IMG/VR virus record: IMGVR_UViG_3300009285_001596
Location: 1-24,071 of that record
Strand: one strand, 5' to 3'
Source of the DNA: a virus
Length of the DNA: 24,071 bases
The notes beneath the pieces are model-generated. The model was not told the origin of the DNA. It did not search any database and saw only the letters and a list, made by a program, of their open reading frames with translations. The position numbers were made by a program, and so were the translations under genes. Below, in pieces: positions 3,001 through 19,530 of this stretch (its first letter is position 1; every line of letters begins with the position of its first letter).

Positions 3001-6000
3001 CTGTCTGCCAAGAGGAATATCGCGCGGTTGCTGCCGCTCCTGTTATCGTGAATGAGTTTGAACCTGTAGCAGTCACTTCTCCACTCGCCGTTATCGCACT
3101 GGAGGTGAGAGTACCGCTCACAGTGACGTTCCCCGAGGCATCAATCGAAATCCCTTCATCTCCCCCGTCACCGCTCAAATAATTGGAGCCGAGAATGATA
3201 TTTGCGGCCGATCCTAAGAGGCTGAAATTTCCCGTTACTGTGAGCGTTCCCGTAACGGCGAGGGGTTTGTCAATCGAAACCGTTGTTCCGTCCCACTCGA
3301 GAACTGCCGCCCCGCCCGTGGTGCGGTTCAAAACGAGTTGTATATCCTCATCGTTACCGTCCAAGTTGATCGTTAACTGATCCGCCGTTGTGCCGGAAAC
3401 ATCCGAGCCCGTAACGACAACCCCATTGATCTCCATTTCCGAGCCGTCCCAGGAGAGATACTGCCCTGCGGGATTGCCGATGTGGAGCTTGTACGCGCCT
3501 ACATTCTTCCCAACCCAAAAGCCAACCCCCGTCATAAAGTCCGTCGCTGCGCCCAAGCCAATAGCCGGAGTTGCGGCGTTGATGAAGGCCGCCCCCGAGT
3601 CTGCTGTAAAGGCCGAAGCTGTTAAGGCCCATCCGCCAACCCATCCCGAGACCGCGTCAATCTGTCCTGCACCTGAGAGCGCCCATCCAGCACTTCCTGA
3701 AACGGTGATCGTATCGTCAACGAGCGTCCCGTTCCAGTTGTTGGACTTCATAATGTTCGTTTCGGCGGTTATACTTTCCGCTTCAACGGTGAACTGCGAA
3801 AGAACCTCGCCGTACTGAACGCGCAAGAGAATAGCATCCCGGTTCTGAACGATCATGGAAAGGTATTCACCCTCCGTTCGGTACACGCCGGAGCCCTGCA
3901 GTAAATCCTCTGTGATCGTGAAGGGGTCAACTGTGAGTGTGTTATCGGAGGAACCCTGATCTCCCGCAAGTGTGAGCGTTGTAATCATGGAGCCCGTAAG
4001 ATTAATCACAACAACCTCATCCCCCGTTTGAAGCAGCGCCTCTCCTATCGGCTCAATCGGAAGTGAGGTGATCCCTACTCCCGCCGCAACCTCCGTCCTT
4101 ACCACGGTAATCGCCTTTGAAAGCTGTGAGTCTCGCGTTGCGTTGGCGAGCTTCACAATTACCTGTCCAACGTCAGAGCCCACGGAAATAACCGAAGTCG
4201 AAGAAAAGACTTCATCCCCAACCGTGACTGAGCCCTCGTCTTCCCGTACCTCTTGCCACTCCCCAGACCATTCATTCAGTTTTGGATTGAAGGTAATATC
4301 GTTCGGAACGTGCCGGACGGAGCGCCAAATAATCGAATTATGAGAAGTGAGCTGTCCCCGGATCGTTGCTTTCAAGAGTTTGTTCGGGGTAAGAAGACTC
4401 TGAAGTATCGCAGTCACGGCAAGCTGATTCAGCGAGAATTCCTCAGATCTTCCGTAACGGGCCCATATCGAAGTGGGCGAGCCGTTGAAAATGATGTGCG
4501 AATAATGCTGCGAAGTTGGTCCGTCACCTTGAAGGACCGTGCCAACATCAAACATGGGGAGTGGCGTTTCTCCGTCTGTCTCTGCGGTAAAGGTGAGGGC
4601 TGTCTGCTCGTCTCCCCCTCCGGCATTTATCATCGTTCCGGTAATCGGACAATACTCAATACCGTCGTACGCATTCGGGAATTCCCACCGTGTTCCGTTG
4701 TGATCGAAAAAGTATGCCTGTTCAAGCTGTGTCGCGGTGAACGTGCAGATGTTTGTTCCCGTTGGAATGTCCGGTGAAAGAATCTCAAGAAGCGTCTCCA
4801 CGATCCCGATTTCTTCCTGATTCCAGTACTCCGTATCAGACCATGAACTCGAATCGGGCGTATCGCGAACAAGCCATTTCGTGCCGACTTGAAACTTCCA
4901 ATAGATTTTTGGAGAAGGAAGAAGCGCCGCCGGAACGCCTGCAGCTCGAAGCGCCCGAGCGGTAATCTTCAGCCTGACCTTGACACTCTCTCCAACGCCG
5001 ACGGAAATCGTCGCGCCGATGTTGCTGATAAACGCGAAATCTCCCGGACTGTCGTAGCTTGAATGTTCCCCGTTGATCCTGATTTTATTTCTAACCGGAA
5101 CGAGTTCAACCGAAACGCCCGGAATACCCTGATCGTCAAATGTCCAAGGGTCAAGCTCGAAGGTTGCAAGGTCCCCGTTCGGTATGAGGTTCGGTACTCC
5201 GAGCCGATGGTTAAAAGAAAGTTTCGCTGAACGGTACGCCTTAACAAGGTCCTTGTGTCCCCCGGCCCGAAGCCTTATCGTCGAGCCGTCAACCGTCTTC
5301 CGGTAATCGGGAGCGGATGGCTCAACGTACGCGCCCGCCGCATTATACCTCCTCATCCGTATTGTGTCTTCCGCGTATTCGGATCGCTGAACAATGAGCC
5401 AGCAGTTTTCGAGCAAGTCCTCAGCGTCGAATGTCTGTTCAATCCGTAGGCCCTTCTGACAGAGAAGCGAATCCAATACCTGATAACACGAAAGGGGTTC
5501 CCCTAAGACGGCGAGTTGTGCGGCTTGTTGCTGTTCCCGTTCCCATTGATGGGATCGTACAAATTGCGTTCCGGGTTTCAAGAGGCCGTGCGCGGCCCAG
5601 ACATCCTCGAAGTTGTAAAAATTCTTCTGCTCAATCTCCGCCTGCTCCAATGGATCGTTATCGTCCCCGGTGAGCATCCCCTCGGCATACCAGGCGTCCG
5701 CCGTTTTGATCTTGAGCCCGTACCCAATCTTGCCGAGGATATTTGCAATGACCGTTGTTTTCGGAACAACCCCCTCATACTGCGCCTCCGAAGCATCTAA
5801 GAAGGGGATCGTCTTCAGCATGTTCAAGCCGCAAGTTGCGTAAATCGGAAGGATGAATGGGAAATATTTGTCCGGCTCCGAATACTGATCGGTGAGAACG
5901 TACCCCCTCCAGTACTCCGCATCGTCTTTGTAGAGGCGAAGCTGGTACTCCATTTCTCCCGCGCCGTAGATTGCTTCGATAATATCCTGTACGACTTGAG

Positions 6001-6208
6001 ACTGTACGGCAACGTTCCAGGTGAGCTTCGAGGCCCTTATGGGCTGATAGGTATTCCGTTTGCCTTCCCAGTTCAGAAGGGCCGGGGTATCGTCGCAGAT
6101 CACCTCTGTTGAGGCTCCAACATACCCGTCCTGATAGAGTTTCACAACCCAGGTAAAGGTACCAGAGTCATCAAGAAATTCAGCGTGGAGTTTTTGCGCG
6201 AATGCCAC
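1..6208 (-). CDS. Giant tail protein (baseplate hub/fibre-like), partial at left edge
   Basis: The frame starting at the GTG at 6208-6206 stays open to the window edge, giving at least 2,069 residues with no stop; I read every codon of the frame. The start overlaps the tape measure stop by one base (TAGTG) and has GAGGAA about seven bases upstream. Residues 1 to about 350 look like a folded tail-attachment domain (for example LLNWEGK, YQPIRAS, LTWNVAVQS). From about residue 900 the sequence becomes low-complexity beta-rich fibre sequence (TVTGTLT, GAITASG), with an 88-residue duplicated unit and a tandem 34-residue array. The visible end carries LGIGTP and DVTLYRSAANTL, phrases typical of phage fibres that often end in an S74-type chaperone peptidase, which would lie outside this window. 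Position after the tape measure fits a tail-tip or receptor-binding protein. Hub function is inferred; a phage tail protein is near certain. Confidence 0.88.
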   Translation of the reverse strand, partial: MAFAQKLHAEFLDDSGTFTWVVKLYQDGYVGASTEVICDDTPALLNWEGKRNTYQPIRASKLTWNVAVQSQVVQDIIEAIYGAGEMEYQLRLYKDDAEYWRGYVLTDQYSEPDKYFPFILPIYATCGLNMLKTIPFLDASEAQYEGVVPKTTVIANILGKIGYGLKIKTADAWYAEGMLTGDDNDPLEQAEIEQKNFYNFEDVWAAHGLLKPGTQFVRSHQWEREQQQAAQLAVLGEPLSCYQVLDSLLCQKGLRIEQTFDAEDLLENCWLIVQRSEYAEDTIRMRRYNAAGAYVEPSAPDYRKTVDGSTIRLRAGGHKDLVKAYRSAKLSFNHRLGVPNLIPNGDLATFELDPWTFDDQGIPGVSVELVPVRNKIRINGEHSSYDSPGDFAFISNIGATISVGVGESVKVRLKITARALRAAGVPAALLPSPKIYWKFQVGTKWLVRDTPDSSSWSDTEYWNQEEIGIVETLLEILSPDIPTGTNICTFTATQLEQAYFFDHNGTRWEFPNAYDGIEYCPITGTMINAGGGDEQTALTFTAETDGETPLPMFDVGTVLQGDGPTSQHYSHIIFNGSPTSIWARYGRSEEFSLNQLAVTAILQSLLTPNKLLKATIRGQLTSHNSIIWRSVRHVPNDITFNPKLNEWSGEWQEVREDEGSVTVGDEVFSSTSVISVGSDVGQVIVKLANATRDSQLSKAITVVRTEVAAGVGITSLPIEPIGEALLQTGDEVVVINLTGSMITTLTLAGDQGSSDNTLTVDPFTITEDLLQGSGVYRTEGEYLSMIVQNRDAILLRVQYGEVLSQFTVEAESITAETNIMKSNNWNGTLVDDTITVSGSAGWALSGAGQIDAVSGWVGGWALTASAFTADSGAAFINAATPAIGLGAATDFMTGVGFWVGKNVGAYKLHIGNPAGQYLSWDGSEMEINGVVVTGSDVSGTTADQLTINLDGNDEDIQLVLNRTTGGAAVLEWDGTTVSIDKPLAVTGTLTVTGNFSLLGSAANIILGSNYLSGDGGDEGISIDASGNVTVSGTLTSSAITASGEVTATGSNSFTITGAAATARYSSWQTAGVNRWLIGADASAETGSNVGSDWVIRGRSDAGADLGTYLTITRSTGATSLSGTLSSGAITAAGVTTAPQFVSNYTADFGVAAYQLNYGNRIRFDSGANYWRMSQNSAGGFNIAKDGVADAVVIDALGSVAILEQLKFDTDANFWRISQTVAGGLNITKDAVIDALVFDALGAAAMGGSLTVAGEVTVTGSNSFTITGAAATARYSSWQTAGVNRWLIGADASAETGSNVGSDWVIRGRSDAGADLGSYLTITRSTGATSLSGTLSSGAITASGDITIEKANPALFFNADANNYTYQDFSNGATDGNFRVGAEGSTGAQLAVGSSPFAGIINRQGLYPLQFATNNTVYMTLSSTGSLTVAGDAAINGGDLTSTATTFNLFNATVTTLNFAGAGVAINIGASAGFSLLPNAGYSGNLGSLAKKYLTLHAAELWVETLVAQNTIATIGGRILGGPTTQLIADLTDIATTIDVKHNEMASGDRVYMEANAKVEFMSIDSAATPITGGYRYTVTRNLDGSGANAWNAGDAIFNTGTTGDGFIDIYSVAGVKAGTEYGPAIVGNIRNSATYNDWDAAWAIGNLNGVYGYIADTYGAAFGKYNASNNHITIDPTNGVRFFSGTATVLGQLTSTTWTLGNTTTEHISISSTAVQIKDGATVCANLTAGALSLGDTANEHTLINTSGVALKDGANVYALFAATTTIGLTASEHISISSTSVQIIDSASVYTDLTAGVLTLGLQAGGEYAVIDGTDGIRLYGGGSLKVQLTNAGVLTLGDTANEHVNLTATALQFKDGATVLTDVSGGNVTIGEVGASKANLYISAGTAYFRINTTAMLAMGAAVWDGLNGISMGNGVAFIQNTNIQHGHLAFVSLTSGTFTDGDAVLGEIMVATGVTNPNNVAGRFTATVQSGATVTSNYAVRALATAISGTTNYGIFATALAGTTNWAGYFDDGNVYIKNNLGIGTPTLSGKLNIMDHTTAAGGLYIGSDVTLYRSAANTLTTDDDF
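595..1111 (-). repeat. Tandem array of about 34-residue fibre modules inside the tail protein
   Basis: Five successive modules begin at about 1111, 1009, 910, 808 and 697, with a degenerate sixth at 595, so the spacing is 34, 33, 34, 37 and 34 codons. Each starts with a variant of LGDTANEH, followed by a short strand, then KDGATV or a variant, then LTAG and a return to LTLG. The fourth module is the most diverged (LGLQAGGEY, DGIRLYGGG). The regular period fits a trimeric beta-rich fibre shaft built by module duplication. The repeat was seen in translation; it is weaker at DNA level. Confidence 0.8.
2187..2450 (-). repeat. 264-bp near-identical direct repeat, copy 1
   Basis: This stretch matches 2817-3080 at an offset of exactly 630 bases (210 codons), so both copies are read in the same frame of the tail protein. 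By eye there are about 17 mismatches in 264 bases, and the first 66 bases (plus-strand order) are identical. The encoded unit of 88 residues includes NRWLIGAD, SDWVIRGRSD and GTYLTITRS, a module commonly seen in phage fibres. A short partial echo of its plus-strand left end recurs at about 3081-3110. Confidence 0.88.
2817..3080 (-). repeat. 264-bp near-identical direct repeat, copy 2
   Basis: Partner of the copy at 2187-2450, on the same strand and in the same frame. It is nearer the protein N-terminus (about residues 1044-1131, against about 1254-1341 for the other copy). Most differences between copies fall at silent positions, so protein-level constraint has probably been kept since duplication. 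Confidence 0.88.
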
Positions 6209-8922: not shown

Positions 8923-8930
8923 GATAGATA

Positions 8931-8940
8931 CTCCTTTGGG
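8931..8940 (-). promoter_or_regulatory. Strong ribosome-binding site for the major tail protein
   Basis: The minus strand reads CCCAAAGGAG followed by eight bases and ATG. Most neighbouring genes depend on stop-start overlaps with weak SD sequences, so a full AAAGGAG with its own 18-base gap marks this gene for independent high-level translation. Confidence 0.75.
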
Positions 8941-9363: not shown

Positions 9364-9809
9364 ACCCTCCTCAATATCTTTCTGATCTTGTCTAAGAACT
9401 TCGGCCGCTCTTCCTCAACTGCAGGAAAGAGAAACGGCTGCGGCGGAAGGTTCACCTCGCGAATGCCCTGCCCTTTAAACTGAAGGGCGAATGCTTTCAA
9501 ACCCTCAGGTACTTCCACAAGGGAGCCGGTCCCGAACTCCACGTACGGCCCGTAATCAACGGTGTCAACAGAAACTTTCCCGCCAAGCCCATCCTTCGAG
9601 AAGGTTGAATGAAGTCCCGCTCTGAGTCCGCCCGTTCCCGTTCCGATCTCTTTTCCAACCGGGGCGTTCCGTTTGGCGGCCGTCTCAATCCCAAGCGTTG
9701 ACGTGGCAACGACGATCTTCACCTCTTCCTTTTTCTTCTTCGCCCAGGCATCCGTTTCTCTACGGAGTTTGTCAAGTTGTTTGCTCGATATTTGCGCTTT
9801 GAGTTGCAT
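9360..9809 (-). CDS. HK97 gp10-like head-tail/tail completion protein
   Basis: The protein has 149 residues from the ATG at 9809, two bases after the preceding stop. A longer frame beginning at 9872 would overlap the adaptor gene by 62 bases and is less likely. The family signature is in the middle: AAKRNAPVG, then TGGLRAGLHS, then VDYGPYVEFGTG, then LPPQPFLFPAVEEE. This is the hallmark of the HK97 gp10 family, found between connector and tail genes and thought to act in tail attachment. A Lys-rich helix (WAKKKKEEVKIV) precedes it. Confidence 0.88.
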   Translation of the reverse strand: MQLKAQISSKQLDKLRRETDAWAKKKKEEVKIVVATSTLGIETAAKRNAPVGKEIGTGTGGLRAGLHSTFSKDGLGGKVSVDTVDYGPYVEFGTGSLVEVPEGLKAFALQFKGQGIREVNLPPQPFLFPAVEEERPKFLDKIRKILRRV

Positions 9810-9810
9810 T

Positions 9811-10167
9811 TTAACTCGCTTCCGCAGCCTTCTCTTCACACTGGAGATTGTAATACCATTCCTCCTCGTCAACCTTAATCACGCCGTGAATCACAAATAC
9901 CCGGCTTCCGTACAGTATCCGGTACCCATGAGCGAGTTCTTCCGAGCCCGAGCCAAGCTCGTTTTGCCAACGCAAAAGAACCTTGTGCGTGATGTGGCTC
10001 TGAAGTTGTTCGGCGCGCATCCGTTCGTACGCGGATAAAGGCGTGATCTTCGTCCATACGTCCTTGACATCCGAATACGTCCCTACCGTCCCGCCGTAAC
10101 CATCGGCTGTCGTGGACTGCTTCTGTAGTGTGACCCTATGTTTCAGATCGCCAACCCGTATTTTCAT
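9811..10167 (-). CDS. Head-tail adaptor/stopper protein
   Basis: The protein has 118 residues. It begins IRVGDLKHRVTLQKQS and continues with DGYGGTVGTY, WTKITPLSAYERMRAEQ and HKVLLRW, the recognisable head-tail joining family (SPP1 gp16-like, Phage_H_T_join). It closes the bottom of the connector after packaging. The start overlaps the connector stop as ATGA. Confidence 0.9.
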   Translation of the reverse strand: MKIRVGDLKHRVTLQKQSTTADGYGGTVGTYSDVKDVWTKITPLSAYERMRAEQLQSHITHKVLLRWQNELGSGSEELAHGYRILYGSRVFVIHGVIKVDEEEWYYNLQCEEKAAEAS

Positions 10168-10826
10168 AAAATCCTCAAAGAAGAAAGGAGCGACTTTGAA
10201 ACGGGAGTCAGCGCGCAGTCGATCTTTCCCTGCCCGTCAACGCCGATCTCGCCCCGATTTTGATAAAGGAACGTCACGGAATCAAGAATCGCATCCTTCA
10301 CCTTTTGCGGCAAGGGATTTGCCGGAGAGTCCTCCGAAACAGAAGCGGAATAGTCCGCCGGGTCGTAACCGACCAAGACTGTTGCGCGAATTGAAACGTC
10401 AATATATCCCGTCGTTGTGAAGGAGTTGCTTACCGAGGTTACTCTGAGTGTTTTGATCTCCTCGCCCCTCACGGTGTAGGTGTCAACGTCTTCCCATGTG
10501 TCGGAGCCCGCTTCGTACTGCTCAACGGATTCCACCAGGACATGAGGCGGAAGAGGCATAACGGCGTAATCGTTGAAGCGCTCCCATTCAATGCGGATCG
10601 TCTTTCTCAAGATCGCTCTTTGCGTGAAGTCCTCTGCTTTTGAGGTGACGGTCCGAATGAGCTGCTCGATTAGGGTATCGTCCCCGTCGTAATCAATCTT
10701 TGCGTGGGTCTTCGCCTCATCGACGGAAACGATCAACTCCGTCTCCTCTTCCAGGATGCGGACCTGTACGCCCTCGGCGGGACGGTCCGATCTCTTTTTC
10801 GATCTGTTCAGTGTGGGGTAGCTCAT
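10164..10826 (-). CDS. Head-tail connector protein (gp6-like)
   Basis: The protein has 220 residues from the ATG at 10826. An upstream in-frame extension to 11027 would cover the 65-residue gene and is rejected because 10826 forms an ATGA overlap with that gene's stop. The body has SVDEAKTHAKIDYDGDDTLIEQLIRTV, then AEDFTQRAIL, and later VKDAILDSVTFLYQNRGE. These are the classic helices of the gp6/gp15-like connector ring that binds beneath the portal. The first 25 residues are basic and Pro/Ser-rich. Confidence 0.88.
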   Translation of the reverse strand: MSYPTLNRSKKRSDRPAEGVQVRILEEETELIVSVDEAKTHAKIDYDGDDTLIEQLIRTVTSKAEDFTQRAILRKTIRIEWERFNDYAVMPLPPHVLVESVEQYEAGSDTWEDVDTYTVRGEEIKTLRVTSVSNSFTTTGYIDVSIRATVLVGYDPADYSASVSEDSPANPLPQKVKDAILDSVTFLYQNRGEIGVDGQGKIDCALTPVSKSLLSSLRIL

Positions 10827-11020
10827 TTTCTTTTCTCCGGGCCTGTGACCTTTCTTTTGCGGCTTCGAGTGGCAATCTCTTCCTTCGTTGCAAGGCGGGC
10901 CTTGGGATAGGGTCCCTGGGTCAACGCGCGTACCTCCGCTTTGAGGACCCAGAACAACCTTCCTTTCGGCATGATCCTGTGATCTCGCAGGAGTTTTTTG
11001 AGTGTGATGAGAGCCTTCAT
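10823..11020 (-). CDS. Small basic protein, function unknown
   Basis: The protein has 65 residues and is very rich in Lys and Arg (KKLLRDHR, TRSRKRKVTGPEKRK at the end). Both ends are coupled: its ATG overlaps the GT29 gene stop as ATGA, and its stop overlaps the connector start as ATGA. That arrangement is strong evidence that it is translated. I recognise no domain. It is the last gene before the head-tail genes resume, so it could belong to either the glycan block or the structural module. Confidence 0.72.
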   Translation of the reverse strand: MKALITLKKLLRDHRIMPKGRLFWVLKAEVRALTQGPYPKARLATKEEIATRSRKRKVTGPEKRK

Positions 11021-11928
11021 AATGCAACCGCCTTTCGTTTTTTTACCAGAAACTTCGCCCTTTCGGGCGTTGCGAAAAATACTTCCTTCCGGTGAACGAA
11101 TCCAGCCGAAGTAAGCATAGGCGTAAGCGCCTGCATCTTTACCGTTTCATCCGTCTTCGCCTCTTGCAAGAGTCTGTTCTCTGTCCAATGTTTCAGCATA
11201 AGAACGTGCGGCGGAGTGTTCACCCTTTTCAATCGCACCAGGGGCCGAGGCGGGGCATGCCTCTCGTGTCTCTTCGGCTTGTTCGTTTGTGCCTCTTGGA
11301 GAATCTTTTCCATGAGTTCATCCACCGTCACCCTATCGTCACCGTCTATGAGTCTTTTGACGAATGCCTTGTGTGAGGGTTGATCGTGTCCGCCTGCGGA
11401 AATGTTCCCCGGAAAGGCGTGAGAGCCCGACTTGTTCCCGCCGTACCCTTCATAATACCCGTACTCGTAAAAGTGCATCCCGAGAACGTGAAGAGTTTTT
11501 AAGGGAAGACCGAGCAGGTGTGTCAACGCAATGGCCCCCGCGTTGGGGGATTTCCGTACCTGCCGCCGAACGTTCGCCCTCACAAGGGCCGGAACCGCTT
11601 CGAAGGAGATGCGCCCCTTATTGATCTTCTCAAAAGATTGAACCTTCGGGGTCTCCCTCGGGTACACACTGACGATATGGCCCACCTTTCCAATTGCCTC
11701 CTCGAATGACTTGCTGTTGTGGGCAATGTCCACTTGGAGCAAGTGGTAGAGAATATCCGTTCGCTTTCCCAAGTCAATAACTTGCGCCTCGGATATGTTC
11801 CATTCCCGGTTGATCCTTACCACTACATCGTAAGAATCAATCTTCTCTCCCAACCCCGCGCCTTCGAGCGCCCGCGAGGGACAGACGAGAACAACCGACT
11901 TGTCTTTCACTATTTCGGCGGCGGTCAT
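11017..11928 (-). CDS. GT29 sialyltransferase-like glycosyltransferase
   Basis: The protein has 303 residues. Residues 12-40 carry a sialyl-motif-L-like segment: VVLVCPS, a Gly-rich turn, then KIDSYDVVVRIN. Residues 128-154 resemble motif S: PNAGAIALTHLLGLPLK, then HVLGMHFY. Residues 181-187 (HDQPSHK) fit the position of the late catalytic His motif. Family members transfer sialic acid from CMP-sialic acid to a glycan. About 90 C-terminal residues beyond the motifs (from PKRHERHAPPRP) form a basic extra region of unknown role. There is no signal peptide or membrane segment, so it should act in the cytoplasm. It lies in the same block as NeuB and NeuA, which would make its donor. The acceptor is unknown. 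Fold assignment is by motif recognition. Confidence 0.82.
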   Translation of the reverse strand: MTAAEIVKDKSVVLVCPSRALEGAGLGEKIDSYDVVVRINREWNISEAQVIDLGKRTDILYHLLQVDIAHNSKSFEEAIGKVGHIVSVYPRETPKVQSFEKINKGRISFEAVPALVRANVRRQVRKSPNAGAIALTHLLGLPLKTLHVLGMHFYEYGYYEGYGGNKSGSHAFPGNISAGGHDQPSHKAFVKRLIDGDDRVTVDELMEKILQEAQTNKPKRHERHAPPRPLVRLKRVNTPPHVLMLKHWTENRLLQEAKTDETVKMQALTPMLTSAGFVHRKEVFFATPERAKFLVKKRKAVAL

Positions 11929-12173
11929 GCTTTGTCACTTTCTCTGAATGGCCCCGACTTAAAAACAGCGTTGCATTGTATCCCCGCCTCTTGAACACGA
12001 CGACACAAACAGGAAGGACACAGTAAGCCACCCTCGTCATGTGTTGGACTGACCTTCTTCCAAACATCATCCGGTATAATCAGATCGGGAAATCCAAACT
12101 CATCACCGTACTTCCGGCCACAGTCTATGCAACAGCCCTGCATTCTTCTGTTTTCGGCAAATCTTTTACACAT
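11925..12173 (-). CDS. Small zinc-ribbon phage protein, function unknown
   Basis: The protein has 82 residues. C15-x2-C18 (CIDCG) and C52-x2-C55 (CPSC) form a probable four-Cys zinc site. Between them lies DLIIPDDVWKKVSPTHDEGGLL, a pattern I know from many small uncharacterised phage proteins. Its ATG overlaps the GT8-like gene by eight bases, and its stop overlaps the GT29 start as ATGA. No enzymatic role is claimed; it may be a binding or regulatory protein. Confidence 0.8.
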   Translation of the reverse strand: MCKRFAENRRMQGCCIDCGRKYGDEFGFPDLIIPDDVWKKVSPTHDEGGLLCPSCLCRRVQEAGIQCNAVFKSGPFRESDKA

Positions 12174-12903
12174 GAACCCTCGTGTAGAAACTCCACCATA
12201 ATTCCGTTAAGGGCTGATAGAGGGGAGCATCATTCAGCCAGGGCTTGCCCGCGCAAAAGTGAATCATCTTCGGAACGCGGCTCAAGAACATTCTGGGATT
12301 GTATTCCCAACATTGGTCAATCATTTGAAACTCTACATCGAGCAGGTGAACGCTCTCCGGGTCTGTCTCATACAAATAGTGAGCGAGAATCTGCTGATCG
12401 CCCATTCGTGTATCCTTCATCGCGAGCGCATATGCCTGGACCCGATCATACGTTTCTTTCGAGGGCTTCAGGATCATCAGGCCGCCCGAAAACGGGGGCC
12501 GCCCGAACACCGGCTCCGAGAGCCCTCTACCCACAATGCCGACCGAAGTAAAAGGCTTGCACTTCAAAAGCCCTGAAATGTCCTTTAGGACAATCACGTC
12601 CGAATCGAGAAAGCACACATCCTCGCCCTTCGTGTCCAAGAGAAAGACGGTCAACTTCTGCATGGCCCGGGCGAATCGTTCATGTTTCAACTGTGATGTG
12701 TCAAGAGTGAACGTGCCGAGGCTCCTTCTATGGACGATCTGTGCGCCCTGGTTCTCAAGCCTCCGAATACTCTTTCCAGTCAGATCATCCTCAATCATCA
12801 CGGTCCAGCTCGCGTTCTTTATGCCAGAGTTCTCCTTGAAACTCTGTAAGAGCGCTAGTGTCCCGGGTACGTAGTTTTCCGTTGTGAGGGTTACGAAGTT
12901 CAT
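12166..12903 (-). CDS. GT8-like glycosyltransferase
   Basis: The protein has 245 residues from the ATG at 12903, which overlaps the methyltransferase stop as ATGA. It shows the GT-A features of glycogenin/LPS GT8-type enzymes: N-terminal FVTLTTENYVPG, a DxD metal and nucleotide-sugar motif at residues 100-102 (FLDSDVIVLKDI), the acceptor-side FSGGLMILKPS at 138-148, GDQQILAHYL at 168-177, and a late His segment IHFCAGKPW at 214-222. It probably transfers a hexose from a UDP-sugar. In this operon it could build the acceptor that the GT29 enzyme then sialylates, which is an inference. Confidence 0.83.
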   Translation of the reverse strand: MNFVTLTTENYVPGTLALLQSFKENSGIKNASWTVMIEDDLTGKSIRRLENQGAQIVHRRSLGTFTLDTSQLKHERFARAMQKLTVFLLDTKGEDVCFLDSDVIVLKDISGLLKCKPFTSVGIVGRGLSEPVFGRPPFSGGLMILKPSKETYDRVQAYALAMKDTRMGDQQILAHYLYETDPESVHLLDVEFQMIDQCWEYNPRMFLSRVPKMIHFCAGKPWLNDAPLYQPLTELWWSFYTRVHV

Positions 12904-13478
12904 TTGAAGAAATACCATGTTTTGAAAATGTGTTCCTCTGTTGTCACGGCGAGGATTTTGCCTTCCTGTTTTGCGAACGCATCAACCGCGTCCTTTACGC
13001 CGAACTTGATCCCTTTACGATCCCCGGAGAAATAGTCGTGACCCGAGAAGAGACCGCCCCTTCGGAGTTTCGGATACCAGGCCAGAAGGTCCTTCTCTAC
13101 CGCTTCCTTCGAGTGATCTGCGTCAAGGTAAATAAAATCGAGGCTCTCGTCGGCGAATGTTGCCGCCGCCTCAAGGCTTGTGGCCCGGAGAATGCGAACG
13201 TTGGCAAACCGGGATACCCTCTCTTTACACTCTGCGAGGATCTTCTCCCACTCCTCTTTCGATTCCTTCTTTGTGTCGATCCAGAGCTTATCCGTCCGGC
13301 GGAGAAAATCATTGTATCCGGGAAGAGAGGCCCACGCATCAACGAGAAAGAGTTCCTTTCCCTTCCACGAGTTCAGGATGATCTCTGAGAAGACTCCGGC
13401 GAAGACTCCCACCTCAACCCCAAGCCCCAAGAGGTTATGGTCATTCAAAAGCTGGCCGATCTCGTTCCGTGTTTTCAA
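12900..13478 (-). CDS. Class I SAM-dependent methyltransferase (Methyltransf_24-like)
   Basis: The protein has 192 residues. The start is a TTG that overlaps the HAD gene stop as TTGA and has AAGGAG eight bases upstream. The Rossmann motifs are clear: VEVGVFAGVFSE at 21-32 (SAM-binding loop), LVDAW at 45-49 (acidic residue for SAM ribose), LDFIYLDADHSKEAVEKDL near the middle, and GGLFSGHDY after it. This family is common in glycan and antibiotic clusters and often methylates sugars. The substrate is not evident; a sugar or the nonulosonic acid itself is plausible from context. Confidence 0.82.
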   Translation of the reverse strand: MKTRNEIGQLLNDHNLLGLGVEVGVFAGVFSEIILNSWKGKELFLVDAWASLPGYNDFLRRTDKLWIDTKKESKEEWEKILAECKERVSRFANVRILRATSLEAAATFADESLDFIYLDADHSKEAVEKDLLAWYPKLRRGGLFSGHDYFSGDRKGIKFGVKDAVDAFAKQEGKILAVTTEEHIFKTWYFFK

Positions 13479-13837
13479 TTCTGTGCTCCTTGTTCGAGCT
13501 TGTTCATTGCAAGGTCTTTGAGTTGTTGAAACGTGACCGCCCTATCGTCAACGTAATAGTCCGCCGCAGGTTTGTTGAAAACGATATGCGAGCCTTCCAC
13601 ACCCGCCTCTTTGAGCTGCGCTTGTGTTAAGAGCATGAGTTCCGGCGTGACGTTTTGAGAACCCCGGGCCGTGTAGATCACTATTTCATGGCCGAGATTG
13701 AACAGGACCTTCACAAAGGCAATCGGGGAAAGTTTCATCCCAGGGATCGGCTCAAGGTTCGGTTTTGCATCCCGGTATCCGTTTTGCGGGGTCCCGCCTT
13801 TGAAAAGAGTTCCGTCGATGTCTACAGCGATTCGCAT
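13475..13837 (-). CDS. HAD-family phosphatase, candidate sugar-phosphate phosphatase
   Basis: The protein has 120 residues from the ATG at 13837, which has GGAG five bases upstream and overlaps NeuA by 16 bases. HAD motif I is DIDGT at 6-10 (D6 nucleophile, D8 acid/base), motif II is T56 in IYTARG, motif III is K89 in NKPAADYY, and motif IV is D97-D98. It is a minimal capless HAD like those in capsule and sugar-nucleotide clusters. A phosphatase is exactly the step missing between NanE, whose product is ManNAc-6-P, and free sialic acid. It could act on ManNAc-6-P or on a sialic acid 9-phosphate. Enzyme class is confident; substrate is inferred. Confidence 0.82.
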   Translation of the reverse strand: MRIAVDIDGTLFKGGTPQNGYRDAKPNLEPIPGMKLSPIAFVKVLFNLGHEIVIYTARGSQNVTPELMLLTQAQLKEAGVEGSHIVFNKPAADYYVDDRAVTFQQLKDLAMNKLEQGAQN

Positions 13838-14517
13838 AATCTCCAATCGTCTTCCGTGTCGAGTTCAAAAAAGTGTTTCATCGGCATCTCGTAACAGGCA
13901 ACAAAACCATTTATGATTCTTCCCGACATCAGGAAATCCCGCCGGCGGAAAATGTAGAGAGCCCCGTTTTCCACGAAGAGCCCTCTGACACCGGCCAAGC
14001 CGGGGCGATAATACTCCTCTTCCGTTGCGCCCGCGACCGAGCCGTCGAGCATCTGGCGGTAGAAGTATCTCTTCAGTCTCACACCGGAAAAAACCGAGTA
14101 AGGCGCATTCGAGAACCCCTCCCTCGTCAGGCTCTCCATGATCTTCTCTGGGAGAGATTCAAAGAGACTGATCGCTTCATCAATATCTTTGCCCGTTGTA
14201 AAGGGCGAGGTTGCCTGAAGCATCACCACGGCATCGGGTGAATTTGCGGCGAAGTATTCCTTCAAATGAATGAGGGGGGCGTTTGGCTCTACGGTTGACT
14301 CAATGCTCCGGTTGAACACTTCAACGCCCTTAATGTTTTCGATATACTTCTTGATCTCCGCATCTTCCGTTGAGAGGATAACCCTCTCTACTTTCTTACT
14401 CTCAAGTGCCGCTTCGAGTACGAAGTCAATCAGGGGCCGCCCCTTGAAGAGCTTCATCATCTTCCGGGGAATCCTCTTCGATGCGCCCCGGGCCGGTATC
14501 AAGGCAACGTAGTTCAT
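13822..14517 (-). CDS. neuA: CMP-sialic acid synthetase (N-acylneuraminate cytidylyltransferase)
   Basis: The protein has 231 residues from the ATG at 14517, which overlaps the preceding 59-codon gene as ATGA. The CTP-binding signature is at the N-terminus: IPARGASKRIPRK at 7-19, followed by GRPLIDFVLEAAL. Further family motifs are LSTEDAEI at 48-55, LQATSPF at 100-106, ENGALYIFRRRDFL, and ELDTEDDWRLCESL at the C-terminus, where the acidic pair binds metal. It activates a nonulosonic acid with CTP to give the donor for a sialyltransferase. The length is normal for the catalytic domain alone. Exact sugar (Neu5Ac, Kdn, legionaminic or other) cannot be read from the sequence. Confidence 0.9.
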   Translation of the reverse strand: MNYVALIPARGASKRIPRKMMKLFKGRPLIDFVLEAALESKKVERVILSTEDAEIKKYIENIKGVEVFNRSIESTVEPNAPLIHLKEYFAANSPDAVVMLQATSPFTTGKDIDEAISLFESLPEKIMESLTREGFSNAPYSVFSGVRLKRYFYRQMLDGSVAGATEEEYYRPGLAGVRGLFVENGALYIFRRRDFLMSGRIINGFVACYEMPMKHFFELDTEDDWRLCESL

Positions 14518-14693
14518 ATCAGTCTTTTTTGTTGATCCCACCAGAAGCCAACAGTAATGCTTGAGGGGGCTTCCCGCTTCTGCGCTCCAGGGAGTTCAAC
14601 TTGTTTGTGAACTCTCTTTTTCTTTTTCGGCTCTTTGAATTTGAGCTGTCCTTGCGCCTTCAAGAACTCGTGGAGGTTGTCGATCCTGTTCAT
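14514..14693 (-). CDS. 59-residue basic protein between neuB and neuA
   Basis: ATG at 14693 overlaps the NeuB stop as ATGA, and its TGA overlaps the NeuA start as ATGA, so it fills the gap exactly. The product has an N-terminal helix (RIDNLHEFLKAQGQLKF), a Lys-rich centre (EPKKKKRVHK) and an aromatic C-terminal segment (TVGFWWDQQKRLI). I recognise no family. Its slot is where an accessory subunit or remnant C-terminal domain of NeuB might be expected, but it shows no similarity to the SAF domain that I can see. Confidence 0.72.
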   Translation of the reverse strand: MNRIDNLHEFLKAQGQLKFKEPKKKKRVHKQVELPGAQKREAPSSITVGFWWDQQKRLI

Positions 14694-15538
14694 GGTTTGT
14701 GCTTCGCCCTCGTTTCTTTTTCGCAGGGGAGTATTTCCGGATTCTTCTCCCGTATGGCGCTCGCAACGTCCTCAAGGTATTTCCTGATCTGCTTCATTCC
14801 TTCCGGCTCGCAGGAGGCCGCCTGATCTGTGCCCTTCATCGTCCGGTCAAGTGTCAAGTGCCTTTCGATATGTGTCGCGCCCAAAACTTGCGCCGCAACG
14901 TCGATCCCCGTTGACTGCGTATGATCGGAGAAGGCAACGCCCTTGATGAATGTCCCGTACCTCATGCGGAGCCTCGTAATCTCTCCGAGGCAGGCATCCT
15001 CTACCCTCGCGGGGTACGCGGACGTACAGGCGTACAAGGTCAAGTCGTGATTCCTTTTCAGTTCGGTAAAGAGTTTCACAATCCCGTCGATCTCTTCCCT
15101 TGTTGTCATGCCGCAGGAAATGTGAATCTCCCCTTCCCACTTGTGGCAGAGATACCGCAGGAGCGCCTCGTCGTTATTGTTCCCGCTTCCGACTTTGATA
15201 TAGGCGGGATCGAGCGATATGATCTCATCGGCGGAGTCCACGTCGAACACACTGCAGGCGTACCGTACCCTGTTCAAGAGACATTCCTGTTTCAAAAGCC
15301 TGTGCTGCTCAAGAGAAAACTCAAGGGCTTTCCTGTGTTCATAGTACGTCGCGCCGAAGGCATGAGCCGGGTTTGGATGAGGAGCACTCCGGTCAATGAT
15401 GTTTTCCGGGTTCCGTTTCTGAAACTTCACCACATCCACGCCGCAGTATGATCCCGCAATGCGTACCATCCTCACGGTGGTATCGAAATCGCCCTGATGG
15501 TTGCAGCTTATTTCTGCGACAAGTTTTGATCTGTTCAT
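14690..15538 (-). CDS. neuB: Sialic acid synthase, NeuB-like, lacking the SAF domain
   Basis: The protein has 282 residues from the ATG at 15538; an upstream in-frame extension to 15628 would overlap the capsid gene and is rejected. TIM-barrel motifs of NeuB are present in order: AEISCNHQGD at 8-17, VVKFQKRNPENII from 36, IKVGSGNNNDEALL, ISCGMTTREEID, LYACTSAYPARVEDA, FSDHTQSTGIDVAA, and ERHLTLDRTMKGTDQAASCEP. The enzyme condenses ManNAc (or its phosphate) with phosphoenolpyruvate. Typical bacterial NeuB is about 340-350 residues with a C-terminal antifreeze-like SAF domain; here the protein stops just after the barrel. It lies 58 bases after the capsid gene. Confidence 0.87.
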   Translation of the reverse strand: MNRSKLVAEISCNHQGDFDTTVRMVRIAGSYCGVDVVKFQKRNPENIIDRSAPHPNPAHAFGATYYEHRKALEFSLEQHRLLKQECLLNRVRYACSVFDVDSADEIISLDPAYIKVGSGNNNDEALLRYLCHKWEGEIHISCGMTTREEIDGIVKLFTELKRNHDLTLYACTSAYPARVEDACLGEITRLRMRYGTFIKGVAFSDHTQSTGIDVAAQVLGATHIERHLTLDRTMKGTDQAASCEPEGMKQIRKYLEDVASAIREKNPEILPCEKETRAKHKP

Positions 15539-15546
15539 TTTAGAAC

Positions 15547-15574
15547 CCGGGGCCGTCTTTAGGACAAGCCCCGG
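15547..15574 (-). promoter_or_regulatory. GC-rich hairpin between capsid gene and neuB
   Basis: CCGGGGC at one end pairs with GCCCCGG at the other around a 14-base loop. A second, mutually exclusive pairing (GCCCC/GGGGC) uses the bases next to it at 15570-15584. There is no U-tract on the minus strand (it reads GTTCTAAAATG), so it is not a standard terminator. It may shield the 3' end of capsid mRNA or lower read-through into the glycan genes. Confidence 0.5.
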
Positions 15575-15596
15575 ATCGTTGGGGCGAGTGAAACTA

Positions 15597-16862
15597 CTAC
15601 GAGCCGGAAGCCAGTGAGCTGTACACAAAGGCGTTCGGGCGGAAATTGACGAGCATAATGCGCTCTTCAGCCCTGATGGTCTTCATGTTCTGAGCAAACT
15701 GGGCGTTCACCCATCCGACTTGAATGTTCGCTTGCTGCCGATCATACAGCGTGGCTCCTAAGCCGAATGCGCCGCAGAGGAAATCCCCCGCCGTCAGGCT
15801 TTCAGATTCCACAACCGGCAATCCCCACATGCGCGGAATCGCGCGGGTCTGGGGGTTGGCGAACAGGTACGCGTTCGTTGTGTCTTGTTTCAGAAGCTCA
15901 ATCGCTTCCCAATCTTCCGGGTTCAGCACAAATCCCGTTGCCGGAAAATGAGCAAGCTGAACCTGTGTGATCGCCCTTCGCAGGGTGTCCACGTTGGTAT
16001 CGCCCGCCACGCGCCGGTTGTATTCGGCTGCGATGGTGGTAATACCTTCCAGGTGTGCGCCTGTGCCGTCACCGTAGAGGATCTCATCCTCTTCCTCGAT
16101 CTTCACGGCGTAGAGCAGACGGCCATTGACGTACCCGATCAAAACGGGCGCATCGTCGGCAATCTGTTCCGTGATCGGAAGGGTCGTTGCAATCACGGTC
16201 GCAACCGCAGTCTGAAGCGAGAACTGAATCCGGCTTTCCGGCTTTGTTCCCTCTTCGGCAACCACCGTCGCATTACCGCGATTGTCGTTTCCGCTTGAGC
16301 CATCGTCGAACACATCCTCACGGACGTACTCGAGGGAACTGGTACTGATCGGCGTGACGTTCAGAAGATCCCGAATGTGAAGCTCCTGCTCCGGGACGGG
16401 CTGAATGATACCGGGAACGCGGAAAGGAACAATGGCCGCTCCGCCCGAGGCATCGTCAGTTGTGAGCGTGTCCTTGAAGAACGACTTCATTTCAACACGT
16501 GCCGTTCCGCCGGCGAGCTTCCGGTTCTTGTACGCATCGGCCTCAACAACGAGATAGCCGATGGACTTCACCTTGTTTCCGCCGAAGCCGAAGGTCTGAA
16601 TCTTCGTCTCGAATTGATCGAGGCGGCCATTCAAATCCTTCTGAATCTTCTCTGACAGGGTTTTGGCCTCGTCGGTCTTCGCGCCCATGTCCTTGACCTG
16701 TTTCTCGAGGGTCTGTTTGATGTCGGCCGTTCCCTCAAATTTCTTTACCGCCTCGTCGAGTGCTTTCTTCGAGGTTTCCATCTCCGCAGCAATCTTGACT
16801 TGCTGGTCCGTGATGGTTTTCAGTTCCGCCTTGACTTCAGGGGATAATGTGATTTCAGGCAT
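15597..16862 (-). CDS. Major capsid protein, HK97 fold
   Basis: The protein has 421 residues. The first 95 or so are charged coiled coil (KALDEAVKKFEGTADIKQTLEKQVKD), the delta/scaffolding domain normally removed by the prohead protease. The mature part carries family features: GGAAIVPFRVPGIIQP, EEGTKPES, LPITEQIADDAPVL, IEEEDEILYGDGTG, ITQVQLAHFPATGFVLNPEDWEAIELLK, and GLPVVES near the C-terminus. It assembles the icosahedral shell. It follows the protease gene by 13 bases and has a TAAGGAG site nine bases upstream of ATG. Confidence 0.94.
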   Translation of the reverse strand: MPEITLSPEVKAELKTITDQQVKIAAEMETSKKALDEAVKKFEGTADIKQTLEKQVKDMGAKTDEAKTLSEKIQKDLNGRLDQFETKIQTFGFGGNKVKSIGYLVVEADAYKNRKLAGGTARVEMKSFFKDTLTTDDASGGAAIVPFRVPGIIQPVPEQELHIRDLLNVTPISTSSLEYVREDVFDDGSSGNDNRGNATVVAEEGTKPESRIQFSLQTAVATVIATTLPITEQIADDAPVLIGYVNGRLLYAVKIEEEDEILYGDGTGAHLEGITTIAAEYNRRVAGDTNVDTLRRAITQVQLAHFPATGFVLNPEDWEAIELLKQDTTNAYLFANPQTRAIPRMWGLPVVESESLTAGDFLCGAFGLGATLYDRQQANIQVGWVNAQFAQNMKTIRAEERIMLVNFRPNAFVYSSLASGS

Positions 16863-16871
16863 AACGTTACT

Positions 16872-16878
16872 CTCCTTA
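16872..16878 (-). promoter_or_regulatory. Strong ribosome-binding site for the capsid gene
   Basis: The minus strand reads TAAGGAG nine bases before the capsid ATG, and its first three bases are the protease stop codon. It is one of only a few full SD sequences in the late operon and fits the high copy number of the capsid protein. Confidence 0.75.
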
Positions 16879-17583
16879 CTGTTTCAAATGGTTTTTGAGC
16901 GCCTCAACGAATACCTTGTTGGCCGCCTCTTGTTCCCCTTTGGCCGGGGATTGTAAGGAGTCCTGATAGTCCATGATCGCTTGTTTCAGTTGTTTGATCC
17001 TCAACTCAATATCGAAAGCCGTCTCGTCCCGCAGTTCGTTCCTCAACACGCGGTGGAGGTTGTCGATCTGCTCAACGGCCCTTTGAATGTCTTCTTTTGA
17101 TTTCATGCCGAGGAATGGTGTTTCCTCGTTTGCGCCCCATGTGACCGCCGAAAATTCCCAGAGCTTGAGTTCAAGGAGAACGTTCGGCTTGTCCTGTTCG
17201 CGCTGAACCTTGATGATGTCGTATCCGATGGAGTGTTCATTGATCGCTCCACCCTCATACAATACGAGCGCATCCCGGCCCCATGAGGTTTCGAGAACCT
17301 TCGTCTCGAAGTAGAGTCCTTTTGAATCTTCTTTGAGAACCTGCGGCTTGCCGAGGATATGATCCCGATAATGCTGATACAGCATGGCAACACGGTTCTT
17401 CCCCTCCGGACCTTGTTCTTCAATCGTCCGCTTGAATGCGCCGGGGCGGATGATGTCGTTGTCGGAATCGACGTTGTTGAATGCGGCCGCGTAGCCGGTA
17501 ATGATTCCCTGCTTCTTGTCAACATCTTTCAAGGCAACCTTCAGAGGAAGGCCCTTGTAGTGGATGGATTGGTTTTCTTTCAT
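16876..17583 (-). CDS. Prohead maturation protease, HK97 family (U35)
   Basis: The protein has 235 residues from the ATG at 17583, which overlaps the HNH-like gene stop as ATGA; a GTG four codons upstream is possible. The family core is visible: GIITGYAAAFNNVDSDNDIIRPGAF at 26-50, catalytic His candidate H71 in LYQHYRDHILGKP, and catalytic Ser candidate S118 in NEHSIGYD, followed by KLWEFSAVTWGANEETP. It cleaves the delta domain of the capsid protein and itself during maturation. The C-terminal 70 residues are helical and charged. It sits directly before the capsid gene as usual. Confidence 0.93.
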   Translation of the reverse strand: MKENQSIHYKGLPLKVALKDVDKKQGIITGYAAAFNNVDSDNDIIRPGAFKRTIEEQGPEGKNRVAMLYQHYRDHILGKPQVLKEDSKGLYFETKVLETSWGRDALVLYEGGAINEHSIGYDIIKVQREQDKPNVLLELKLWEFSAVTWGANEETPFLGMKSKEDIQRAVEQIDNLHRVLRNELRDETAFDIELRIKQLKQAIMDYQDSLQSPAKGEQEAANKVFVEALKNHLKQ

Positions 17584-18059
17584 TTCAGTGTCCACTTTCT
17601 TCTATTTCGCATTTGTTCGGAATGCGTCGCCCATCTACAATTCCTCGGCTCATAGTTGCCATCGTTGTTGATCCGCTCGATTGACATTCCCACGGGGCGA
17701 GATCCCATATCCGCTAGGAAATTCACGAAACTATGAAGCCATCTCTCGCAGACCGTGATACCTCGACCGCCGTAGTTTGTGAAACACTTTATATTGGGAT
17801 TGTAACACCGCGATTTCATACTTGACCAGGTTCTATATTCTCGCGAAGCATTCGACACCCCGCTCTTTGTGTGCCCTTTTGTGTGCCCGTGTTTTAAATG
17901 GGCAGGGTGTTCTCTTTGGATACATCCACAGCTTTTGCTCGTTCCATCCTTCAGTTTATCTTGTCGGACATTTCCCTCGGTTCCACAAGAACAGCGGCAA
18001 GGCCAATACCGCCAAACTGTTGTACCACGTCTGACTTTTTCGCTTTCGCCGACAACCAA
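17580..18059 (-). CDS. HNH-like putative homing endonuclease
   Basis: At least 159 residues. The N-terminal part has a treble-Cys segment (CRCSCG, then SCGC). The C-terminal part has the phage motif series EYRTWSSMKSRCYNPN, NYGGRGITVCERW, GMSIERINNDGNYEPRNCRW and EQMRNRRKW, a type usually annotated as HNH or AP2-like selfish endonuclease. The only usual start is the TTG at 18059, but the family's conserved N-terminal phrase continues upstream in frame (GQQCGRW at about 18079-18060). The frame is open to a TGA near 18120 with no ATG, GTG or other TTG. The true start is therefore unresolved, or the N-terminus has decayed. It stands between NanE and the protease, a place where free-standing endonucleases often enter phage operons. 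Confidence 0.72.
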   Translation of the reverse strand: MVVGESEKVRRGTTVWRYWPCRCSCGTEGNVRQDKLKDGTSKSCGCIQREHPAHLKHGHTKGHTKSGVSNASREYRTWSSMKSRCYNPNIKCFTNYGGRGITVCERWLHSFVNFLADMGSRPVGMSIERINNDGNYEPRNCRWATHSEQMRNRRKWTLK

Positions 18060-18085
18060 CCATCGTCCGCATTGTTGTCCCGGCG

Positions 18086-18754
18086 TTATCGCTGGTTGAT
18101 GATAGAACGTACAAACCTCCTCGTTATTTCAATCGGCCTTGTGATTGCGCTTCCTACACATACCGCGTGAGCGCCCAACTCAAATGCCCTACCCGCCTCT
18201 TCCGGCGTCCCGATCCTGCCCTCGGCGATGACTTTGCCCGGGTACAGTTTTGAAAGGGCGGCAATCAGGTCGAAGTCCGGGCCGTGAATCAATTTCTCTA
18301 CCGTCTCTTTCGTGTACCCCGAGAGCGCCGTTGTGACGTAATCGGCCCCGGCATTTATGGCATCGATCCCCTCGGCGAGCATGGACACATCAGCGACAAC
18401 CGTTGCATGTTCCTTTTTCGCAAGATGAACCATTTCAATTCCCGTCAATCCGTCGGGGCGTTTCCTGTGCGTTGCATCCAAAGCCACGGGCCCGGCAACC
18501 TTGATCGCTTTTACGTCTTCAATCGAGCTGGTAATCAGAACCTCTCCACCGGGATATTCCCTTTTCGTCAGGCCGATGATCGGGATACTCACTAAGCCAT
18601 TCACAAACCGGATATTCGCCAAACCACACACTCTTACTGCTATCGCGCCTCCTCGTTCGGCGGCAATGGCAAAAGCCGTAATCATGGGGGGCGTATCGAA
18701 TGGGCTCCCCGGTTCAGACTGACATGAAACTATGAGGCCGGATTGAATTTTCAT
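18086..18754 (-). CDS. nanE: N-acylglucosamine-6-phosphate 2-epimerase (ManNAc-6-P epimerase)
   Basis: The protein has 222 residues from the ATG at 18754, which overlaps the MuF-like gene stop as ATGA; a start ten codons upstream is less likely. It is a clear NanE TIM barrel: GLIVSCQSEPGSPFDTP near the N-terminus, GGAIAVRVCGLANI, IPIIGLTKREYPG with the expected Lys, VALDATHRKRPDG, ALSGYTKETVE, VIAEGRIGTPEEA with the expected Glu, and AVCVGSAITRP. It interconverts GlcNAc-6-P and ManNAc-6-P. In bacteria it usually serves sialic acid breakdown, but beside NeuB, NeuA and a sialyltransferase it can supply ManNAc-6-P for synthesis. Being wedged between head genes is very unusual. Confidence 0.93.
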   Translation of the reverse strand: MKIQSGLIVSCQSEPGSPFDTPPMITAFAIAAERGGAIAVRVCGLANIRFVNGLVSIPIIGLTKREYPGGEVLITSSIEDVKAIKVAGPVALDATHRKRPDGLTGIEMVHLAKKEHATVVADVSMLAEGIDAINAGADYVTTALSGYTKETVEKLIHGPDFDLIAALSKLYPGKVIAEGRIGTPEEAGRAFELGAHAVCVGSAITRPIEITRRFVRSIINQR

Positions 18755-19530
18755 TTGGGTACAAATCCTTGAGTGCAACGACAAGAAATTATCTGTTCTG
18801 CGCTTCCGTTCGGATCACCGGGAAACTCAAGCGCCTCTCCGCCGATATTGAACTCTGCGTGAAGATCAACCCTCTGGCCGTCGGCTATCAGGTGATCGTC
18901 CCTCACCCTTTCGTCACGCGTGGCAATCCATTCTTTCCAAAGTTCAAGCCCAGTACTCTCAGCGCCCATGATACTCCCGAAATTTGAGGCCCCGATTGTT
19001 TCCGTTCTCGCAATAACGAGGCTCCTTGCGCGTGTAATCTCTTCCGAATCGTTCCTGATCGCTCTTGCGATTTCTGCTATGCCCTTTCCTTGAGATATAT
19101 ATTCCTCAATCACTGAGGCGATTCTCTTTTTCGTTGTCTCTGTGATCTGGACAACCTTCCCCGCCCCGTTCTCTTCCATGTAATCGCGTACTCGCTTATA
19201 CCAGGCATCCCTTTGCTGCCGATTCGCCTTCATGGACTTTTGCACAGCGTCAAACGCATTTGCGGCGAAGGGGATTGAGACGAGCAAATAAGACGAGAGG
19301 AGCATCGCCTCAATCATGTTCTTCCTTCTGTCGATCTCCCTGCCTGCGGCAAGGGCCGCCTCCTCTGGTGTCTGAACCTTAAGGATCTCATCGGCGGCTC
19401 TGCGTTGCTGAGACTTTAACGTTCGGGAAACGATCTTTTGAACCGCCGGAACGTACCGGAGTCTCTTGCCGTTAAAGGCTTTCCAAAATGCCGGACGGTC
19501 TGCTTCAGATATGTTGTAAGGGTAGATCAT
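18751..19530 (-). CDS. Phage Mu gpF-like minor head protein
   Basis: The protein has 259 residues. The N-terminal two thirds are helical (SRTLKSQQRRAADEILKVQ, KANRQQRDAWYKRVRDYM). The C-terminal third carries the MuF signature: ARTETIGASNFG, then WKEWIATRDERVRDDH, ADGQRVDLHAEF, PGDPNGSAEQIISCRC. Members are minor capsid proteins associated with the portal and sometimes ejected with DNA. It follows the portal gene by 19 bases. No toxin-like C-terminal fusion is present. Confidence 0.91.
   Translation of the reverse strand: MIYPYNISEADRPAFWKAFNGKRLRYVPAVQKIVSRTLKSQQRRAADEILKVQTPEEAALAAGREIDRRKNMIEAMLLSSYLLVSIPFAANAFDAVQKSMKANRQQRDAWYKRVRDYMEENGAGKVVQITETTKKRIASVIEEYISQGKGIAEIARAIRNDSEEITRARSLVIARTETIGASNFGSIMGAESTGLELWKEWIATRDERVRDDHLIADGQRVDLHAEFNIGGEALEFPGDPNGSAEQIISCRCTQGFVPK

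Follow-up and report, generated by a model that had tools for sequence, protein, structure and literature searches.

The window analysed here (the whole 24,071 nt of IMG/VR record IMGVR_UViG_3300009285_001596, probably a fragment) carries on its minus strand, among the head and tail genes of a tailed phage, a seven-gene cassette predicted to make and transfer a sialic acid-like sugar (NanE, NeuB, NeuA, a HAD phosphatase, a methyltransferase, a GT8 glycosyltransferase and a GT29-like transferase). A preliminary description made from the letters of the DNA had placed NanE, NeuB-like, NeuA-like, HAD and GT29-like genes on one strand between 11017 and 18754 among structural genes, and family profiles confirmed all five; it had omitted the GT8 and S-adenosylmethionine (SAM)-dependent methyltransferase genes, both of which are part of the cassette. 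We propose that this is a sialylation cassette expressed with the structural genes and most likely directed at a virion protein, a view held with about even confidence. In its widest form the proposal is that a tailed-phage lineage makes a donor resembling cytidine monophosphate (CMP)-sialic acid from a central amino-sugar phosphate and sialylates its own particle by means of an animal-like GT29 enzyme and a synthase lacking the SAF domain, which would be the first case of a bacterial virus with a self-contained system for sialylating its virion; this we advance tentatively, rating it a little short of even. If it is right, phage particles are cloaked in an acidic sugar displayed by animal cells and some bacteria, with a bearing on adsorption, particle surface charge and the fate of phages in animal-associated or sludge-type habitats.

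The order of steps, as we infer it, would begin with conversion of host N-acetylglucosamine 6-phosphate (GlcNAc-6-P) to N-acetylmannosamine 6-phosphate (ManNAc-6-P) by NanE. NeuB would condense the sugar with phosphoenolpyruvate (PEP) into a nonulosonate like N-acetylneuraminic acid (Neu5Ac), the phosphate being stripped by the HAD protein or a host phosphatase either ahead of this step or following it, and NeuA would use cytidine triphosphate (CTP) to turn the nonulosonate into the CMP donor. GT8 is proposed to set the underlying sugar, a hexose stub, on the acceptor, GT29 would transfer nonulosonate from this donor to cap the hexose, and the finished glycan would be modified by the methyltransferase (methylation of the glycan or of the sugar is proposed). 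The acceptor would be glycosylated in the cytoplasm, the candidates being the capsid, the tail tube and a Ser/Thr-rich long tail protein, the last of which is a possible acceptor by its composition.

NanE is a clear member of its family. It exceeds the curated cut-offs of its NCBIfam and Pfam models (Table 1) and aligns with the solved NanE 4utt (E-value 2.6e-48), the glutamate of the VIAEGRI motif being matched and a lysine being retained where entry 4utu has Ala; by this alignment both the catalytic Lys and the catalytic Glu are present. NeuA has a CTP_transf_3 domain with the motif IPARxxSKR..K, and its closest solved structures are mouse CMAS (1qwj) and PpNeuA (9t4z). The HAD protein aligns with the solved capsule-biosynthesis protein 9iqw (E 1.1e-6) and HAD neighbours NeuB in 36 of 79 viral loci; its place on the CMP-nonulosonate path is supported by locus L071, where NeuA is fused to HAD. 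NeuA homologues of 363–393 aa were seen in L030, L031, L033, L040, L042, L060 and L071, the extra part in L071 being this HAD, an arrangement that resembles animal CMAS architecture. The solved proteins matched by GT8 are Skp1 galactosyltransferase and glycogenin, both of them enzymes that act on protein.

The GT29-like protein is, on its predicted model, a divergent GT29-fold enzyme, and it has strong genomic linkage to CMP-sugar synthesis. Its Pfam score (22.1 bits) lies 0.9 under the 23-bit cut-off, and the protein of the sister phage L003 lies over it (25.8 bits). With a two-sequence profile no solved relative was detected, and a two-sequence model reached a predicted local distance difference test (pLDDT) score of 35; the first was overcome and the second superseded once viral homologues were found and added, a scan of viral contigs having given 30 further GT29 loci (some of them near-duplicates). 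The AlphaFold model built on 20 aligned proteins (those of the 484-kb phage L024, accession LR756508, were not among the rows) has a pLDDT of 75 overall and above 90 across much of the N-terminal core. In Foldseek searches of the PDB it gave 27 matches at E ≤ 0.001, all of them sialyltransferases, with moderate template modelling (TM) scores of 0.31–0.47 by query length. Alignment by hhalign with the four undisputed GT29 proteins of L024 gave E 4.6e-7. A NeuA gene is found no more than 5 kb from GT29 in 18 of these 30 further viral loci and directly adjacent in eight, as against none of 18 control loci (capsid relatives). Residues G27, I30, D34, R38, N40 and G54 are kept and H181 of motif VS is invariant. 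L024 itself has four GT29 genes beside NeuB around 7280–12101 and seven GT29-matched stretches over the whole record. A relationship of the window GT29 to the protein that follows HAD in L023 was considered and is not supported.

The preliminary description had suggested looking for the same gene set at the same loci in related phages. All seven genes occur in identical order in L003 at 80–86% identity, and the ratio of nonsynonymous to synonymous change (dN/dS) between L003 and the window is 0.08–0.22 for every cassette gene and 0.15 for the capsid; these are simple NG86 estimates with some dS values near saturation, and on them every cassette gene is under purifying selection. Two distinct and more distant relatives, L066 and L070 (portals 43–44% and capsids 47–49% identical to those of the window), have the order capsid–NanE–NeuB–NeuA–methyltransferase–GT8–GT29–adaptor, with no HAD found (L064 has the same sequence as L066 wherever the two overlap and was not counted as independent). 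As NanE stands in a different position there, it has evidently been moved or separately gained between the window phage and L066/L070, and then kept. An unrelated 84-kb phage, L026, has NeuA, NeuB, NanE and HAD together with sulfotransferases between its minor head genes and its connectors and tape measure. Two adjoining sulfotransferase-like genes (L026, 12835–14669) lie inside that nonulosonate cassette, which suggests that the L026 glycan is sulfated. In capsid relatives without the cassette (L005, L009, L021 and L022) the interval from capsid to adaptor is occupied by genes of GT2, methyltransferase or MptE-like type, and this gap therefore looks like a hot spot for glycan genes in such phages. 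The window is a single contig, and one could suppose that the cassette is an assembly chimera or a set of passenger bacterial genes with no phage function; the recurrence of the arrangement in L003, and of related ones in L066 and L070, all independent contigs, the purifying selection on every gene and the uniform GC (0.50–0.55 in cassette and structural genes alike) make this barely credible.

NeuB is related to the solved PseI and NmNeuB structures. The PEP and metal residues are common to six aligned homologues, among which E9, K38, Q40, K115, S118, Y175, S204, H206, H227 and D238 are invariant. In classical sialic acid synthases the active site of one subunit is completed by the C-terminal SAF domain of its partner. 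Across the 79 loci the best viral NeuB open reading frames (ORFs) measure 267–310 aa (median 283), too short to include this domain. The closest cellular NeuB found, in a Chitinophagia metagenome-assembled genome (46% identity), is short too and adjoins NeuA in an exopolysaccharide cluster; by comparison with this relative the SAF-less form is a branch present in bacteria rather than a decay product of the window phage. The window GT29 has no match in that genome. The NeuB proteins of the window, L003, L066 and L070 do not form one supported clade; a single origin in this phage family is possible.

Several observations weigh against our reading. In GT29 motif L reads Cys-Pro-Ser instead of Gly-Asn-Ser, the motif VS Glu is not retained and the HY pair of motif III is absent at the aligned position in both window and sister proteins, and in NeuA the motif Lys is followed by Met, at a position occupied in many CMP-sialate synthetases by Asn. 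The L066 and L070 records gave no HAD, which suggests that it is replaceable, and the HAD gene named in the preliminary description, though present, may not be essential. No SAF (PF08666) match was obtained in the NeuB protein or anywhere in the window record, nor in the L003, L023, L024 and L026 records, and the residue equivalent to NmNeuB Glu134 is replaced in all six aligned homologues (in NmNeuB, Glu134 is a substrate-binding glutamate). With the SAF domain and this glutamate both missing, the sugar may not be sialic acid proper. The full sialic acid route claimed at the outset is supported as a route from GlcNAc-6-P to a CMP-nonulosonate donor with a sialyltransferase-fold enzyme, in a structural operon, conserved in the family and paralleled in L026, though perhaps not one to sialic acid in the strict sense. 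The SAF-less NeuB might instead make another ulosonic acid (a 9-phosphate, one of the ketodeoxynononic acid (Kdn) type or one otherwise modified), with which the scores against NCBIfam equivalogs would agree, as NeuB is far below the cut-offs for both Neu5Ac synthase (180.5 versus 399.65 bits) and PseI (137 versus 340) and NeuA has its top score with PseF, yet far under the PseF cut-off. NanE points, however, to a ManNAc-6-P precursor, the NeuB model outscores the PseI model by 44 bits and the SAF-less homologue of the Chitinophagia genome adjoins NeuA, and on balance we regard another ulosonic acid as unlikely.

As to the target, a virion protein is considered the most likely acceptor because all of the genes lie in the head–tail operon and none points to a membrane or lipid-carrier step: the cassette gave no match to a family of flippases, polymerases or lipid-carrier transferases, and in none of its proteins does the mean hydrophobicity of a 19-residue stretch exceed 1.85. 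Glycosylation of capsid and tail tube has been documented in mycobacteriophage virions (Freeman 2023, as cited in PMC12619734). The main rival accepts the pathway and directs it at the host cell surface, envelope glycans being sialylated late in infection or in lysogens so that superinfection is blocked or host recognition changed. The relative L070, which has genes for an integrase and an S24 repressor, is probably temperate, and this makes a role at the cell surface of lysogens conceivable; in Acinetobacter, phages are known to encode changes to the nonulosonates of the host capsule (PMC6586298), and the closest cellular NeuB sits, as noted, in an exopolysaccharide cluster. In the window, however, the genes are inside the structural operon and not in a separately promoted moron (a promoter scan found seven against 7.4 expected, a weak test), they include no membrane glycosyltransferase, and the late expression that we infer would leave little time for remodelling the surface. 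We therefore see a host-surface target as a minority possibility, though one of substance. A further suggestion, that the glycosyltransferases modify phage DNA as in phages with hypermodified genomes, would draw on the existence of DNA-acting phage glycosyltransferases (cited in PMC12619734) and on the DNA methyltransferase at 22874–24046. That methyltransferase is of the ordinary N6/N4 type, and the window has no genes for modified-base synthesis. We know of no DNA modification that uses GT29 or CMP-nonulosonate chemistry, and this suggestion is very unlikely.

Returning to sialylation of the virion, the claim in the preliminary description that a multi-gene nonulosonate pathway in a phage would be new in kind was overstated. 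Uncultivated viruses commonly carry SAF-less NeuB together with NeuA, and hits to viral NeuB and NeuA in IMG/VR run into the hundreds: SAF-less NeuB relatives gave at least 560 viral matches on contigs of up to 548 kb, mostly near NeuA, which is near NeuB in 68 of the 79 viral loci, and a 2013 tabulation of virome genes already included neuA and neuB (PMC3877843), so that neither gene alone is new in a virus. This viral pool is without a PHROGs match, NeuB of this kind was recognizable in three of 50,697 deposited phage records and the window GT29 in none of them. The notable part is the self-contained route from a central metabolite to a transferase, fixed in a late structural operon; no account of a phage structural operon with genes running from NanE to a transferase was found in the open literature searched, which lacks most subscription journals. 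The cassette also offers testable candidate functions for the widespread uncharacterized SAF-less NeuB and GT29-like genes of viruses. Near its SAF-less NeuB, L134 (4090–5559) encodes another NeuB-type protein, which is longer and fused to a cupin domain, and long NeuB-type ORFs were also seen in L098, L120, L128, L130 and L136.

Among known systems, the bacterial de novo sialic acid pathway has the same families in order (ManNAc supply, synthase, CMP-synthetase and transferase), whereas the phage has NanE and HAD instead of NeuC, a SAF-less synthase, a head operon and a transferase of GT29 type, the usual bacterial sialyltransferases being GT42, GT52 and GT80. With the animal pathway (NANS, NANP, CMAS and GT29) it shares the ManNAc-6-P intermediate, a HAD phosphatase, a NeuA for which CMAS is the best solved match and the GT29 fold, but animal NANS has a SAF domain and the phage GT29 model is only about 12–17% identical to the solved animal enzymes. 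To our knowledge no nonulosonate pathway has been reported in mycobacteriophage virion glycosylation. That system is alike in its phage-encoded glycosyltransferases, with virion proteins as the acceptors there (Freeman et al. 2023, same source) as they would be here. The NeuB glycan islands of cyanophages and huge phages, exemplified by L023 (Kyanoviridae AG-345-L05) and L024, have SAF-less NeuB and HAD, with a CTP_transf_3 cytidylyltransferase in L023 and several GT29 in L024, but neither record has a NanE match, and there the synthase belongs to an island of glycan genes and not to the capsid–connector interval. The gtr serotype-conversion modules of temperate phages also carry glycosyltransferases but, unlike the window cassette, work with lipid carriers and membrane proteins.

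Table 1. Positions of the cassette genes and their neighbours in the window, with the supporting family matches
Feature	Position (strand)	Family match	Remarks
Very long tail protein	2..6208 (-)		Truncated by contig end; Ser/Thr ~20% over most of length
Head-tail adaptor	10164..11027 (-)	phrog_442, E 5e-14	
GT29-type sialyltransferase, divergent	11017..11928 (-)	PF00777, E 1.2e-4	
82-aa cysteine-rich ORF	11925..12173 (-)	None	Overlaps GT8 and GT29; absent from L003
GT8 glycosyltransferase	12166..12918 (-)	PF01501, E 2.5e-11	LDSD (DxD) motif
SAM-dependent methyltransferase (Methyltransf_24)	12900..13478 (-)	PF13578, E 5.8e-16	Kept in all family members
HAD phosphatase (sugar-phosphate type)	13475..13846 (-)	phrog_1238, E 2.2e-17	DIDGT (DxD) motif
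NeuA-type CMP-nonulosonate synthetase	13822..14517 (-)	PF02348, E 7.2e-24, 85 bits (cut-off 22.6)	
NeuB-type synthase without SAF domain	14690..15538 (-)	PF03102, E 2.5e-58	Start most likely at 15538
HK97-type major capsid protein	15597..16862 (-)	phrog_10, E 6.5e-59	
Head maturation protease	16876..17595 (-)	phrog_80, E 3.1e-48	
HNH endonuclease	17580..18059 (-)	phrog_374, E 3.7e-53	NanE-protease interval; no counterpart in L003
NanE, N-acetylmannosamine-6-phosphate 2-epimerase	18086..18754 (-)	NF002231, 231 bits (cut-off 189); PF04131, 168.9 bits (cut-off 27), E 9.7e-50	ATG at 18754 overlaps muF stop
MuF head morphogenesis protein	18751..19530 (-)	phrog_2468, E 1.6e-53	

The structural flank (terminase, portal, MuF, protease, capsid, connector, tail-terminator, tail-tube and tape-measure genes) was identified by PHROGs. 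In minus-strand order the genes are DNA methyltransferase, a small zinc-ribbon-like ORF, terminase small (probable) and large subunits, portal, MuF, NanE, HNH, protease, capsid, NeuB, NeuA, HAD, methyltransferase, GT8, the 82-aa ORF, GT29-like, adaptor, head closure, neck, tail terminator, tail tube, tape measure and the very long tail protein. Starts and stops overlap, as first described, at most junctions of the cassette (muF–NanE and the run from NeuA through HAD, methyltransferase, GT8 and the 82-aa ORF to GT29 and the adaptor). The likely NeuB start is 58 bp past the capsid stop, a 172-bp gap parts NeuB from NeuA, and the HNH gene stands between NanE and protease. In the window a terminator scan gave nothing above chance and an Rfam search zero matches, and PADLOC tied no cassette gene to defence. 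Host assignment from terminase and capsid matches failed, the best-matching terminases being those of Bacteroides and Parabacteroides phages (about 35% identity) and the best-matching capsids mostly those of phages of Proteobacteria. The DNA methyltransferase lies upstream of the terminase genes with no restriction partner seen. As the HNH gene and the 82-aa ORF are both absent from L003 they are probably insertions, the former probably a mobile one, and the latter is outside the conserved cassette.

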